This document shows, piece after piece, positions 1,346-7,040 of a DNA stretch of 7,040 bases. The stretch lies in contig JALWSI010000085.1 of NCBI GenBank assembly GCA_027080315.1, forward strand, positions 1 to 7,040, read 5' to 3'. This DNA comes from a bacterium. GTDB taxonomy: Bacteria; Thermosulfidibacterota; Thermosulfidibacteria; Thermosulfidibacterales; JALWSI01. The translations under genes were made by a program, and so were the position numbers. The notes beneath the pieces are model-generated. The model was not told the origin of the DNA. It ran no database searches and worked only from the letters and a program-made list of their open reading frames with translations. Position 1 is the stretch's first letter. The number at the start of each line of letters is the position of its first letter.

Positions 1346-2050
1346 TCAAAAAACAATCTCTCTACCCACCCCCAAAGGCAGAAACTCTCCCGGCCACTGG
1401 CTTCTGAAAAGGGCAATGGCGGCATCTCCTGTGCAGTGGGTGGGCCCCGCCTCTCTCACTCCAAGGGCGTAGAGCCGTTCCATCACCCTGCGCACCTCGG
1501 TCTCTGAGTGGTCAAGAAGATGAAATCCACCCATGACCGCTACGGGAGCTTCACCAAAGGTCTTTTTAACGTACTCGGCCATTCTCACCACCCCAGGATG
1601 GGCACAGCCGGTTATCATCAGAAGCCCCCTATCGCCCTTCACCACCAAGGCCGACTCAGGCACCACACCTGACACAGGGGCGGTTATGTGAACGTTTGGC
1701 ATTAGCTCAATCTCATTCTCAACCCAGCAGGGTTCCCCGCCAATTCTGGCAACCTCCTTTGCAAAGCGGGGAGAAAACCCCCTATGCATGAAGACAGGAG
1801 CCCCCTCTCTCTCCTCCAGCAGTTCCAAGAGTCCGCCTGTATGATCCCAGTGAAAGTGAGAGAGAGCAATGGCCTGGATACGCTTAGGGGAGAGGCCCAG
1901 CATCTCCATGTTTGCAAGCAAGGTGTCTCCGTGGCTTCCGGTGTCAAAAAGCACCACTCCGTCCTCCGTCTCAACCCAGCATGAAAACCCCCATCCCTCT
2001 TGAAGACCATCCACTGCAACAGTGTTGTCAAAGGTCACCACAATCCTCAT
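1346..2050 (-). CDS. Metallo-beta-lactamase-fold hydrolase, COG1237 type
   Basis: This encodes a 234-residue soluble, probably cytoplasmic, MBL-fold protein. Visible metal ligands are H65-F-H67-W-D69-H70 in SHFHWDHTGG, H151 in GCAHPG, H177 in GGFHLLDH and H205 in PTHCTG. A strand with FDTG (35-38) precedes the HxHxDH motif. The order GCxHPG, GGFHL, HCTG and a C-terminal GxGxxIxF is the pattern of COG1237. Members of that family are often labelled 7,8-dihydropterin-6-methyl-4-(ribofuranosyl)aminobenzene 5'-phosphate synthase, after an archaeal methanopterin enzyme. In bacteria the true substrate is generally unknown, so I do not assign one. The protein is shorter than many relatives because the region after the first motif is compact. 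A longer reading from 2122 would add 24 residues of basic, unconserved sequence. The ATG at 2050 is preferred because GGAGG sits 7 nt upstream and the ATG overlaps the TGA of the acetyltransferase gene. The AsmA-like gene follows after 9 nt. Confidence 0.9.
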   Translation of the reverse strand: MRIVVTFDNTVAVDGLQEGWGFSCWVETEDGVVLFDTGSHGDTLLANMEMLGLSPKRIQAIALSHFHWDHTGGLLELLEEREGAPVFMHRGFSPRFAKEVARIGGEPCWVENEIELMPNVHITAPVSGVVPESALVVKGDRGLLMITGCAHPGVVRMAEYVKKTFGEAPVAVMGGFHLLDHSETEVRRVMERLYALGVREAGPTHCTGDAAIALFRSQWPGEFLPLGVGREIVF

Positions 2051-2523
2051 CTGGCATCCTCCCCAAAATTGACCCTGTACAGGTAAGCCTCTTCGTCGCA
2101 TAGATGGGGAAACTTTGGACACCTCACACAGTCAAACCAGATCTTCTGGGGCAACTCCTCCTTCTTGCATCTAACAAAGCCAATCCTCTCAAAGAACCCT
2201 CCCTCTCTGGTCAAAGCAAACACCCTTGGAATTCCCAACTCAGCAGCCTCTTCAAGGCAAGCATTCACAAGAGCACGGCCTATTCCTTTGCCCTGCATCT
2301 CACTTTGAACAGAAAGGGACCTCACCTCTGCAAGGTCCTTCCAGAGCACCTTCAGGCAAACTGCTCCAACCACCTGGTTGCCCTCTTCAGCCACAAAGTA
2401 GTCCCTGATAGACTCGTAGATGTTTACCAGAGGCACCGCCAGCAGATCTCCAGAGGAGACGAACCTGCCAATCAACTCGTGTATGGTCTCGGCATCAGAG
2501 AGCTGTGCTTTTCTCACCACCAT
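2047..2523 (-). CDS. Short N-acetylglutamate synthase-like GNAT acetyltransferase (ArgA type, COG1246)
   Basis: This 158-residue protein is a single GNAT domain. It likely transfers acetyl from acetyl-CoA to the amino group of glutamate, the entry step of arginine synthesis. The N-terminus VRKAQLSDAETIHELIGRF, the DLAEVRSLSV strand (63-72), the acetyl-CoA loop Q77-G-K-G-I-G82, the FFERIGF segment (110-116) and the C-terminal ELPQKIW-D-C-x-x-C-P-K-F block (123-138) match what I know of the short, kinase-less NAGS proteins. Three cysteines (C132, C135, C142) cluster near the C-terminus. Divergent argF and argG next door support the arginine role. Substrate is inferred from family and context; another amino-acid acetyltransferase role is possible. 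A GTG at 2550 would add nine residues, but the family begins at the MVVRKA position, an AAGGCGG element lies just upstream of the ATG, and the longer start would run into the putative argF promoter. The stop overlaps the MBL start as ATGA. Confidence 0.85.
   Translation of the reverse strand: MVVRKAQLSDAETIHELIGRFVSSGDLLAVPLVNIYESIRDYFVAEEGNQVVGAVCLKVLWKDLAEVRSLSVQSEMQGKGIGRALVNACLEEAAELGIPRVFALTREGGFFERIGFVRCKKEELPQKIWFDCVRCPKFPHLCDEEAYLYRVNFGEDAR
2058..2064 (-). promoter_or_regulatory. Ribosome binding site of the MBL gene
   Basis: On the minus strand the sequence GGGGAGG lies 7 nt before the ATG at 2050. This strong Shine-Dalgarno decides the start of the MBL-fold gene in favour of 2050 over the longer reading from 2122. 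It lies inside the last codons of the acetyltransferase gene. Confidence 0.75.
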
Positions 2524-2539
2524 GAGCCCGCCTTTCTGT

Positions 2540-2568
2540 TTGACAATCACAACCTGGTAGGGTTAAGT
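2540..2568 (+). promoter_or_regulatory. Candidate sigma70-type promoter for argFG
   Basis: A perfect TTGACA (2540-2545) is followed after a 17-nt spacer by TTAAGT (2563-2568), a weak -10 with three of six consensus matches. Transcription would start near 2575, leaving a leader of roughly 25 nt before the argF TTG. The element sits in the 78-bp gap between two divergent genes of the same pathway. The -35 and spacing are seen directly; promoter activity is inference. No ARG-box-like palindrome stands out in the gap, and no convincing minus-strand promoter was found. Confidence 0.4.
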
Positions 2569-2586
2569 AGCACCCACTTCTGACAA

Positions 2587-2596
2587 AAGGAAGGGG
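2587..2596 (+). promoter_or_regulatory. Ribosome binding site supporting the argF TTG start
   Basis: AAGGAAGGGG lies 5 nt before the TTG at 2602. An in-frame TGA at 2581-2583 removes any upstream start, and the next residues (GKDLISLLDL) are the usual N-terminus of ornithine carbamoyltransferase, so TTG is the only sensible initiation codon. Confidence 0.7.
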
Positions 2597-2601
2597 AAGT
2601 C

Positions 2602-3531
2602 TTGGGAAAGGATCTTATCTCTCTTCTTGACCTCCAAGAAGAAGAGATTGAACAGCTACTGAAGAGTGCCAGCCGCCTTAAAGCCATGCAGAAGCGGGGC
2701 ATCTCTTACCGCCCCTTTGTGGGGAAGACCATGGCACTGCTTTTTGAGAAGCCTTCTACCCGAACGAGGCTCTCTTTTCAGGCTGGCATGCATCAGCTTG
2801 GGGGAGATTCCATATTCCTGAGCCCCGAGCACACCCAGCTAAGCCGGGGAGAAACCCTTGAAGACACCGCCAGAACGGTCTCCTGTTTTGCAGACATCGC
2901 GGTTCTGCGCACCTTTGCCCACCGCACCGTTGAGGTGTTTGCCCATAACGCTTCAATCCCGGTGATCAACGGCCTCACCGACCTGTTTCATCCCTGCCAG
3001 ATCCTGGCAGATCTCCTCACAATACAGGAGTGTTTTGGAGAGTCTCGCCACAAAATAGTGGCATTTGTAGGAGACGGAAACAACGTGGCCCACTCGTGGA
3101 TAAACCTGGCAGCCCTGTGGCCCATAGAGGTCAGGGTGATAACGCCTGTGGGATACGAACCCTCAGAAGACGTGGTTGAACACGCCAAGAGGTGTGGAGG
3201 AAAGGTCATTGTGACCTCAGAGCTAAAGGCTGTGAAAGGGGCCCACGTGATCTACACCGACGTGTGGGCAAGTATGGGTCAAGAGAAGGAGCACCAGAAG
3301 AGGGTGAGTGAGTTCAAAGGCTACCAGGTGAACAGCAGGTTGATGGAGCTTACAGAGAAAGATGCTATTTTCATGCACTGTCTGCCTGCTCACCGAGGCG
3401 AAGAGGTTACAGCAGAGGTGATTGACGGTCCTAAATCTGTTGTTTGGCAAGAAGCCGAAAACAGGCTGCACATGCAGAAAGCTATCGTGATAAAGCTAAT
3501 GGGAGGAGAAGGAGATGTCGTCGTTAAATAA
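2602..3531 (+). CDS. argF: Ornithine carbamoyltransferase
   Basis: The enzyme carbamoylates ornithine with carbamoyl phosphate to give citrulline in the cytoplasm. The 309-residue protein is normal length for the family. The carbamoyl-phosphate loop is S52-T-R-T-R56, followed by R103-T, the H130-P-C-Q133 motif and GDGNN-V-AHSW (157-166). The ornithine loop D220-VWA-S-M-G226 and the H259-C-L-P262 motif are intact. The SMG loop separates it from aspartate carbamoyltransferase. Initiation is at TTG, set by a good Shine-Dalgarno and an in-frame stop just upstream. The gene diverges from the NAGS-like gene and its 3' end overlaps argG by 17 nt, so the two are surely co-transcribed and probably translationally coupled. 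The arginine-biosynthetic neighbourhood favours an anabolic role over the catabolic deiminase pathway (arcB). AGG is the commonest arginine codon (6 of 16). Confidence 0.97.
   Translation: MGKDLISLLDLQEEEIEQLLKSASRLKAMQKRGISYRPFVGKTMALLFEKPSTRTRLSFQAGMHQLGGDSIFLSPEHTQLSRGETLEDTARTVSCFADIAVLRTFAHRTVEVFAHNASIPVINGLTDLFHPCQILADLLTIQECFGESRHKIVAFVGDGNNVAHSWINLAALWPIEVRVITPVGYEPSEDVVEHAKRCGGKVIVTSELKAVKGAHVIYTDVWASMGQEKEHQKRVSEFKGYQVNSRLMELTEKDAIFMHCLPAHRGEEVTAEVIDGPKSVVWQEAENRLHMQKAIVIKLMGGEGDVVVK
3501..3514 (+). promoter_or_regulatory. Ribosome binding site of argG inside the argF end
   Basis: The purine-rich run GGGAGGAGAAGGAG ends directly at the argG ATG (3515). GGGAGGAG gives a spacing of 6 nt. 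It encodes the MGGEG residues near the ArgF C-terminus, so coding and initiation signals are superimposed. Confidence 0.65.
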
Positions 3532-4711
3532 GGTGGTTCTGGCGTACTCCGGGGGATTGGACACATCCATAATGATTCCCTGGTTAAAGGAGAAGTATGG
3601 ATGTGAGGTGGTGGCCTTCGCTGCAGATGTGGGCCAGCAGGAAGATATGGACAAGGTGAAAGAGAAGGCCTTAGCCACTGGCGCCTGCGAAGCCTATGTG
3701 CTGGACCTAAAAGAGGAGTTTTTGAGAGACTACTGCTTCAAGGCTCTGAAGGCAGGGGCCATCTACGAAGGCAAGTATCCCTTGGGGACAGCGCTGAACC
3801 GTCCCATAATCTCCAAATACTTGGTTGAAATTGCCAAGAAGACCGGAGCAGATGCAGTGGTGCACGGGGCCACAGGAAAGGGCAACGACCAGGTGAGGTT
3901 TGAGGTCTCAGTAATGGCTTTGGACGCCAACCTGAAGTGCATAGCCCCTGTTCGCACCTGGGAGTTCAAGTCCCGTCAGGAGGAGATCGCCTACGCCCAG
4001 GAGAAGAACATTCCCATAGAGGTCTCCGTTGAGAAGCCCTACAGCATTGACCGCAACCTTTGGAGCATCAGCATTGAGTGCGGAGTGCTTGAGGACCCCT
4101 GGAACGAGCCTCCAGAAGACGCCTACCTCATCACCACCTCTCCAGAAAAGGCCCCCAACGAGCCCCTTTACCTTGAGATTGAGTTTGAGAAGGGTGAGCC
4201 TGTTGCTGTGAACGGCAAGAGGATGAACCCTGTTGAGATGATAGTTGAACTCAACGAAATGGCAGGAAAGCACGGGGTTGGCAGGGTGGACATAGTTGAA
4301 GACAGGCTCGTTGGCATAAAGTCAAGGGAGATCTACGAGGCACCGGGAGCCACGGTGCTGCTAACGGCCCACAAAGAGCTTGAGTATTTAGTGCTTGACA
4401 GAGAGACCTTCCGCTACAAAGAACACTTGGCCATCAAGTACGCCGATCTGGTTTACTATGGCTACTGGTTCTCTCCTCTGCGTGAGGCTTTGGACGCCTT
4501 TGTGGATGAGACCCAGAAGAGGGTGAACGGGGTGGTCAGGCTTAAACTCTACAAGGGCAACTGCGTGCCTGTGGGGAGAAAATCCCCCAACTCCCTCTAC
4601 AACTTCAACCTTGCAACCTACGATCCAGAAGACTCCTTTGACCACAGAACAGGAGAAGGCTTCTGCAAGGTATGGGGCCTTCCTCTCATGGTGGCAGGTT
4701 CAAGAAAGTGA
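3515..4711 (+). CDS. argG: Argininosuccinate synthase
   Basis: ArgG joins citrulline and aspartate with ATP hydrolysis to AMP and pyrophosphate, forming argininosuccinate. The 398-residue length is typical. The N-terminal PP-loop motif is A10-Y-S-G-G-L-D-T-S18. The citrulline/aspartate site is seen in YEGKYPLGTALNRP (84-97) and HGATGKGNDQVRFE (117-130), followed by the conserved EFKSRQEEI (150-158) and PYSIDRNLW (175-183) segments of the synthetase domain. All key residues appear intact. It starts within argF (17-nt overlap) behind a strong purine-rich ribosome binding site, so production of the two consecutive enzymes is probably matched. argH, which often follows in arginine clusters, is not found downstream in this window; a hairpin and an unrelated channel gene follow instead. 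Confidence 0.98.
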   Translation: MSSLNKVVLAYSGGLDTSIMIPWLKEKYGCEVVAFAADVGQQEDMDKVKEKALATGACEAYVLDLKEEFLRDYCFKALKAGAIYEGKYPLGTALNRPIISKYLVEIAKKTGADAVVHGATGKGNDQVRFEVSVMALDANLKCIAPVRTWEFKSRQEEIAYAQEKNIPIEVSVEKPYSIDRNLWSISIECGVLEDPWNEPPEDAYLITTSPEKAPNEPLYLEIEFEKGEPVAVNGKRMNPVEMIVELNEMAGKHGVGRVDIVEDRLVGIKSREIYEAPGATVLLTAHKELEYLVLDRETFRYKEHLAIKYADLVYYGYWFSPLREALDAFVDETQKRVNGVVRLKLYKGNCVPVGRKSPNSLYNFNLATYDPEDSFDHRTGEGFCKVWGLPLMVAGSRK

Positions 4712-4718
4712 CCCAAAA

Positions 4719-4746
4719 GGAGGGCCTTGCTGCTGCAAGGTCCTCC
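4719..4746 (+). terminator. Hairpin after argG, possible terminator or mRNA-stabilising stem
   Basis: The arms GGAGGGCCTTGC (4719-4730) and GCAAGGTCCTCC (4735-4746) pair over 12 bp with one G.U, closing a TGCT loop, 7 nt after the argG stop. On the plus strand no U-tract follows, so classic intrinsic termination is uncertain; a 3' stabilising stem or Rho-related role is possible. Read on the minus strand the stem is followed by TTTT, but no minus-strand gene ends here. The remaining gap to 4832 shows no further convincing element apart from the ribosome binding site. Confidence 0.5.
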
Positions 4747-4820
4747 ATCACAATCCCATTTCACCTTAGTGGGAGAAGATCTCGTCCAGACCCTGTTTGA
4801 CGAAAAGCCCCAAAATAGTT

Positions 4821-4828
4821 GAGAGGAG
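4821..4828 (+). promoter_or_regulatory. Ribosome binding site of the MscS-type channel gene
   Basis: GAGAGGAG lies 3 nt before the ATG at 4832. An in-frame TGA at 4820-4822 fixes this as the first possible start. It is followed by a clear signal peptide, which supports it. Confidence 0.6.
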
Positions 4829-4831
4829 CAC

Positions 4832-5950
4832 ATGCTAAGGATAAGGCCGCTCATTTTATGCCTATGTATGCTCGTGTTGCCTCTCGTGGCTGGGGCATCA
4901 CCTCCCAACACTGTTCCCTTCAACCTTAAAGAGGCAAAGAAGGGCATAGACCCTAAAGAGGTTGAGGAGAAACTCAAGGATTGCCAGAAGATTGTGGCAT
5001 ATCTGAACAGCCTAACTCAAGGCGAACCCCACCAGAAAGAGAACCTATCCCAGGCAGCTGACCTTTTTCAGGGAGCCATCTATCAGCTAACCAAGCTAAA
5101 GGTTGACCTATCAGCGCCCACAGAGGGGATCTCAATCTCCATCCCTGAGCTCACAAACTCTCCACCCTACCCCTTGAAGCTCTACATGGATCTTCTAAGT
5201 GAATACTCAACCATTGCCCAGCAGCTGGAATCGGCCAACCTGAAAACCCAGCTTCTGCAAGACGAGCTGGACAGCTTAGAAGAAGAGATAAACGACCTGA
5301 CCCCCCAGTGGGTTTCACTGAAGCAGAAAATTCCCGATGTTTCATACTATCTGGTGCTGGCACAGCTCATAAACTCACAGGCCCAATACCTCTACGGCCT
5401 TTTGAAGCTATCCCTAACCCAGAAGAGGATAGAACAGCTTTCACAGCTCCAAACAAAGGTGGAAACCTTGCTCAAAAAGGTGTTTCTCCATTTAAAGATA
5501 GAGAAGAAGGACCTTGATGCCGCTCAAGCGAGTTACCAGAAAACCAAGGCTCTATTGGAAAAGGTACGCAATCAGGTAAGAAATGAGCTCACCCGCCTGA
5601 ACCGCAAAATGGCCCTTCTTGAGGTGAGAAAGACCCGGGTTATTGAGAAGCTCAACGCGGCAAACACGCCATCTACAAGGAAGAACACCCTTAAGATAGA
5701 GAAAACAAGGTTTGAGGTGATGCAAGAGGAGGCCCAGATCTCAAGGAAGATCATCTCTCAAAAAGAGAGAAGCGCCCTTCTAGACTACACAGGAGCATCC
5801 TTCAGGCTTCAGTGGCTAAAATGCTATGTGGGTACCTGTACAACCCAGGAGAAGGTTAAGAACATTGGGCTTTGGAAGGATCGCATATCCAAGCTTGACA
5901 GCTACCTGACCTCGGTTAAAGCCGCCATAAACAGGACTTATCACCCTTGA
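4832..5950 (+). CDS. MscS-type channel, N-terminal periplasmic coiled-coil part (ends in premature TGA)
   Basis: The 372-residue reading begins with a signal peptide: basic MLRIR, a hydrophobic core (residues 6-20) and an A-G-A site, so cleavage after A22 is likely; there is no lipobox. The mature part is mainly predicted helix. A coiled-coil stretch lies near QQLESANLKTQLLQDELD (about 130-165), and a long helical region covers roughly 190-320. Cysteines C331 and C336 (CYVGTC) could form a periplasmic disulfide. No membrane segment follows in this frame; it ends at TGA 5948-5950. Large MscS relatives such as E. coli MscK and MscM have secreted, helical periplasmic domains ahead of the channel, which fits the role here. 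The channel domain follows directly in the +1 frame, so I read this as the front part of one broken gene. A separate periplasmic protein encoded just before a channel gene is the alternative. Confidence 0.72.
   Translation: MLRIRPLILCLCMLVLPLVAGASPPNTVPFNLKEAKKGIDPKEVEEKLKDCQKIVAYLNSLTQGEPHQKENLSQAADLFQGAIYQLTKLKVDLSAPTEGISISIPELTNSPPYPLKLYMDLLSEYSTIAQQLESANLKTQLLQDELDSLEEEINDLTPQWVSLKQKIPDVSYYLVLAQLINSQAQYLYGLLKLSLTQKRIEQLSQLQTKVETLLKKVFLHLKIEKKDLDAAQASYQKTKALLEKVRNQVRNELTRLNRKMALLEVRKTRVIEKLNAANTPSTRKNTLKIEKTRFEVMQEEAQISRKIISQKERSALLDYTGASFRLQWLKCYVGTCTTQEKVKNIGLWKDRISKLDSYLTSVKAAINRTYHP
5931..5950 (+). other. Frame transition within the channel gene
   Basis: The signal-peptide frame is open to TGA 5948-5950. 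The channel frame is open from just after a TAA at 5928-5930. Any join must therefore occur in these 20 nt and needs a +1 shift. Removing one G from the AGG at 5933-5935 would give the smooth helical join AINR-LITLEQSS, the simplest repair. The in-frame end is CAC-CCT-TGA-A, where a +1 slip from CCT to CTT would also enter the second frame at GAA. Which explanation holds cannot be told from this sequence. Confidence 0.7.
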
Positions 5951-7040
5951 ACAGAGCAGTCTCAGCGGAGAAGAAGCTCAGAAGGCATTACTACTAAAAA
6001 AGGCGTACAGAAGCCTTCTGCAGTCCATCACTTCCCTGCTTCAGCTTTACCAGGAAAACCTTGGCAAAGGTAAGGATATACGCCTGAAGATGGAGTGCAC
6101 CCTAAACCTCTTCAGGAAGCGAGCAGGGGGCATGGAGAGGCTCTACACCTGGTTCACCGAGAACAGAAAGACAATCTCAAAGAAGCTGAACGCCGTCCTC
6201 AACTACCCCATCTGGACCATAGGCCAGACACCATTCACTTTGGCAAGCATACTAAGATTCCTGATGGTGCTTGTGGTGGGCATTATACTGGTCAGGCTGA
6301 TCCGCCATCGCACTTACAGAATCCTAACCGAGCGCATGGCCTTATCTCCCGGACCCGTCAACTCTCTAACCACCTTGGTCTATTACGTGATGATTCTTTT
6401 GGTATTTCTTATTGCCCTTTCAGAGGTTGGGGTTGACATGAAACAGGTGACCATAATCTTCGGTGCCCTTGGTGTTGGAATTGGATTCGGCCTCCAAACC
6501 ATAGCCAACAACTTCGTGAGCGGGATAATCCTGCTCACCGAACGCTCCATACAGGCAGAGGACATCGTTGAGCTGGAAGACGGCACCCTTGGGGAGGTTA
6601 GAAAGATCAGCATCCGCTCAACGGTTATTCGCACCTACGATGGCCTTGACATCATCGTACCCAACTCTGATCTGGTATCGGGCAAGGTAACCACCTGGAC
6701 CTACGAAGACGACTGGAGGCGGCTGAAGATCCCCTTTGGAGTGGCCTACGGTTCTGATCCACAACAGGTGGAAGAGGTTGCCAAAAAAGCGGCACGATCT
6801 GTGGGAAGCACCGTTGAGGACCCGCACCATCCCGTGCAGGTGTGGTTTGAGGGGCTGGGCAACTCCTCTTTAAACTTCACCCTTCTGGTCTGGATTCGCA
6901 TGCACCAGATCAAATCCAAGACCGGCCTAAAAAGCGACTACTACTTCGCCCTCTACCAGAGCCTGAACGAAGCGGGCATAGAGATTCCCTTTCCCCAGCA
7001 GGACATTCACATTCGCAGCATCTATCCCGAAGCCATAGAG
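5931..7040 (+). CDS. MscS-type mechanosensitive channel, channel part (other frame, 3' end outside window)
   Basis: This frame gives 370 open codons to the right edge. It begins with more amphipathic helix (LEQSSLSGEEAQKALLLKKA), then has three membrane segments: FTLASILRFLMVLVVGIILV (from 6234), LTTLVYYVMILLVFLIALSE (from 6366), and the glycine/alanine-rich pore helix from 6447 containing GALGVGIGFGLQTIANNFVS. The pore helix, the following ERSIQAEDIVELEDGTLGEV beta domain and the PNSDLVSGKVTTWT block are hallmarks of the MscS family core, and the cytoplasmic alpha/beta part continues to IPFPQQDIHIRSIYPEAIE at the edge. MscS channels open under membrane tension to release solutes during osmotic downshift. 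No good start lies at the beginning of this frame; the first ATG is 6090, with an AAGGA only about 13 nt upstream, and would cut into a helix. That favours fusion with the upstream part, together about 737 visible residues. Confidence 0.88.

Follow-up and report, generated by a model that had tools for sequence, protein, structure and literature searches.

A long MscS-type channel gene, very probably disrupted by a net 32-nt loss in a fragmented MAG

Introduction

MscK (KefA) of E. coli (PDB 7uw5 and 7ux1), a protein of 1120 aa with eleven TM helices (PMC9653487), shares an MscS-type core with the channel family to which the gene analyzed here belongs. Genes of any family can appear interrupted in draft genomes, and assembly is a documented source of frame breaks, many of which are due to the assembler, the platform and the coverage (Cooley and Wright 2024, PMC11017572). 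The stretch of DNA analyzed in this work, referred to as the window, is an entire contig of 7040 bp (C85). It belongs to a MAG of 1.84 Mb that is 94% complete and fragmented into 253 contigs.

Results

The preliminary description of this DNA, made from the sequence alone, reported a secreted helical ORF at 4832-5950 and an MscS ORF in the +1 frame from 5931, and both were found as described (Table 1). The former codes for 372 aa, has its only hydrophobic stretch at the N-terminus (residues 1-26) and finishes with an out-of-frame tail, TYHP, followed by TGA at 5948-5950. The frame of the latter is bounded upstream by TAA at 5928-5930 and stays open to position 7040, where the gene leaves the contig. 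The GC content by codon position follows a coding pattern on both sides of the junction, each side in its own frame. Both halves are otherwise undamaged, the junction being the sole sign of loss of function. The window also includes a small arginine cluster (2047-4711). A search of the relatives at E 1e-10 for the five proteins that the window encodes upstream placed none of them close to the gene.

Table 1. Features of the 7040-bp window.
Feature	Position	Strand	Basis or remark
GNAT N-acetyltransferase, ArgA-like	within 2047-4711	-	NF005840
argF, TTG start	within 2047-4711	+	
argG	within 2047-4711	+	
Long MscS-type channel gene, 5′ part: signal peptide and periplasmic helical domain	4832-5950	+	46-48% identity to continuous 790/830-aa ORFs; hydrophobic N-terminus
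Same gene, 3′ part, +1 frame: end of helical domain, three TM segments, MscS beta and alpha/beta domains	5931-7040	+	Pfam PF00924, PF21082, PF21088; 66-70% identity
Junction AGG-A-CTT, apparent site of the net 32-nt deletion	5933-5939	+	A5936 in place of 33 bases in the three closest relatives
First ATG-started ORF of the 3′ frame, 317 aa to contig end	6090-7040	+	core-size MscS possible if translation restarts

The region 5934-7040 matched three Pfam families, PF00924 (62.3 bits), PF21082 (33 bits) and PF21088 (27.1 bits), all above the gathering cut-off, so that the first, second and third MS_channel domains of the MscS superfamily were all detected. The best sequence-profile match of the core was MscK (E 1.5e-51). 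The NCBIfam MscK equivalog (NF008438), the cut-off of which is 991 bits, gave 165.5 bits with the part present in the window and 171.5 bits with the full-length protein of the relative L022. The latter has three hydrophobic segments besides the N-terminus and not the eleven TM helices of MscK. The periplasmic helical domain (4832-5950) had no Pfam match, and a fold search returned a convincing match for the MscS core only, barely covering the helical domain. This Pfam-unmatched domain is present in 37 or more loci of public genomes. The family is distributed among Thermodesulfobacteriota-like MAGs and some others.

To compare the locus with its relatives we used the 47 nearest loci in a public genome set (L022-L068) and, as a second set, five same-order genomes that carry the gene. 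When the L022 and L023 proteins were used in tblastn searches, a first HSP in frame 2 (4799-5935 or 4844-5935, 46% and 45% identity) was adjoined by a second one in frame 3 (5937-7040, 70% and 67% identity). Separate searches with each part led to the same single ORFs in all five same-order genomes. These ORFs, of 790, 830, 638, 744 and 716 aa, have no internal stops, and the one of 638 aa is truncated by the contig end. The preliminary description had proposed looking in relatives for one long ORF across the site; such an ORF, which in relatives exceeds 700 codons, was found in continuous form in 5/5 same-order genomes and 37/47 loci (638 aa in the shortest), although the two sets are not independent, since the five genomes are probably among these 37 loci under different locus ids. 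Across the 37 loci the continuous ORF measures 638-904 aa. Nine others (L053, L054, L055, L057, L060, L061, L062, L066 and L067) code for core-only MscS proteins of 301-366 aa, which are close relatives of the core, start about 80 residues into the window's 3′ part and have no N-domain gene nearby. The family thus occurs naturally in long and short forms. The remaining locus, L050 (Desulfothermus okinawensis JCM 13304), is broken at another place: an independent break in the region 2670-4960, where the frame switches several times close to an A7 run (about 3290-3310), has the look of a sequence error. A consistent two-gene organization in relatives, named beforehand as the observation that would speak against a single gene, was considered and rejected on these counts. 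No conserved split at the window's junction was seen among the five same-order genomes and the 47 loci. These results indicated that 4832-5950 and 5931-7040 are two parts of one ancestral gene, and the broad reading of the preliminary description, namely that a frame change divides a single large MscS-type gene, was borne out by the single ORFs that span both parts.

At the junction, the window reads AAC AGG (N-R, up to 5935), A5936 and then CTT ATC ACC CTT GAA CAG (LITLEQ). The three closest relatives (L022-L024) have NR-LQTTSEIINGK-VIALEQS, with small differences in L023, and the motif NRLQTTSEIINGKVIALEQS is almost identical across them. They carry 11 extra residues, LQTTSEIINGK, between N-R and VIALEQS. 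In agreement, the tblastn HSPs break at 5935 and restart at 5937, skipping 11 query residues (395 to 407 in L022, 434 to 446 in L023). The columns absent from the window are filled, with no gaps, in 37/37 long relatives. In L022 the missing segment corresponds to residues 363-373, which the AlphaFold model (mean pLDDT 80.7) places within a helix predicted with confidence (332-379). Since 33 nt are expected and one is present, the net loss is 32 nt, which gives the observed +1 frame. As judged from the aligned sequences, the event appears to have removed a net 32 nt from a conserved helix immediately ahead of the membrane part, and not to be a one-base insertion. The ancestral junction sequence was taken from relatives with only 45-48% identity in the N part, none of the same species, genus or family. 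The junction contains neither a homopolymer nor a tandem repeat, and a repeat search found no direct repeats of at least 8 nt in 5850-6050. A repeat-mediated or phase-variable deletion was set aside on the latter ground, as judged from the assembled sequence.

Frame breaks elsewhere were surveyed by comparing 60 contigs of the MAG plus the window with samples of two related MAGs, G003 and G005. Frame-broken pairs in the window's MAG amounted to 3/58 genes against G003, the window included, and to 1/16 against G005, this one being the window itself. The corresponding figures for the related MAGs were 2/57 and 2/57 (G003) and 0/19 and 1/64 (G005). A few percent of the comparable genes are therefore frame-broken in the window's MAG and in the related MAGs alike, and some of these breaks may represent natural variation. 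At a further break in the same MAG (L120, 1862-1955), neighboring HSPs change frame across a 2-nt step when compared with a G003 protein. The genome showed no second or intact copy of the gene, either by DNA search or when a degenerate pattern of the missing motif was used, and a plasmid search gave no match.

Discussion

The locus combines intact continuous orthologues with a disruption unique to the window sequence, as in a broken gene. We consider it very probable that one ancestral long MscS-type channel gene is interrupted in this contig, having lost a net 32 nt. The preliminary description had proposed a single extra G at 5934/5935. Removal of one base does restore a readable sequence, AINRLITLEQSS, and the gene could in that case be one that naturally does without the 11 residues. 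However, the corresponding columns are occupied in all the long relatives, including the three closest (46-48% identity in the N part), in which the surrounding motif is nearly invariant. A one-base insertion is accordingly very improbable, and because the relatives show a 32-nt loss, a one-base correction would yield the wrong protein. Among the causes suggested in that description, a mutation and a sequencing or assembly error stay live, whereas the one-base insertion and phase variation, for which neither a homopolymer nor a suitable repeat is at hand, do not. The case is of interest mainly as a caution: the sequence alone pointed to a one-base insertion, and it was the relatives that revealed the loss of 32 nt.

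Two other explanations take the split as functional. CUU UGA of prfB is a known +1 shift site, and the CCT-TGA at 5945-5950 resembles such sites, a likeness that serves only as a lead; with the frame change running in the +1 direction, programmed ribosomal frameshifting could join both frames. Yet all the long relatives read straight through, none having a frame change at the site, and joining the frames would not restore the conserved turns of the helix to the product. A close Shine-Dalgarno stimulator is also absent. Programmed frameshifting is disfavored because the relatives need none, and we regard it as extremely improbable. In a gene fission, one ORF would give a secreted subunit of its own and the other an MscS channel reduced to the core. 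The nine core-only relatives indicate that a core can occur with no N domain attached, and there is an ATG at 6090, but those loci lack a neighboring N-domain gene and the break interrupts a helix midway, well upstream of the natural core start. Furthermore, no promoter-like site was seen, and the ATG at 6090 lacks a convincing Shine-Dalgarno. Fission is very unlikely. Equally little is to be expected of a split fixed in the lineage, with a free periplasmic coiled-coil fragment and a reinitiated core-only MscS acting jointly or separately.

The reading preferred here, an ordinary broken gene or an assembly fault, involves no new mechanism. The ancestral product would have consisted of a signal peptide, a periplasmic coiled-coil domain of about 400 residues, three TM helices and the MscS core. 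The loss of 32 nt in the helix that precedes the membrane part shifts the frame by +1 and leads to termination four codons on. If the deletion exists in the cells, translation from 4832 would produce a secreted periplasmic fragment of 372 aa with the tail TYHP, and in the absence of a restart there would be neither channel core nor full-length channel. A restart at ATG 6090 could in principle give a simple core-only MscS. If the deletion arose in assembly, the cells would have a normal gene. We give somewhat better than an even chance to the deletion being real in some or all of the population; that it is an artefact is a substantial possibility, a little short of even. The window gene, a conserved gene of a draft assembly with a single break of frame and no other damage, is in this respect like assembly-induced pseudogenes, but unlike them in that the event is a net loss of 32 nt and not a one-base or stop-codon error (PMC11017572).

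With respect to known channels, the window family resembles E. coli MscS, which has three TM segments, a beta domain and a C-terminal alpha/beta domain (PF21088, PF00924 and PF21082), although MscS has 286 aa and lacks a large periplasmic domain. Compared with MscK, its members are shorter, at about 760 aa, and L022 has fewer membrane segments. The gene is best described as coding for a long MscS-type channel that has three TM helices and, in the periplasm, a coiled-coil domain, and a three-TM MscS channel family with a large coiled-coil domain outside Pfam represents a modest annotation gap.
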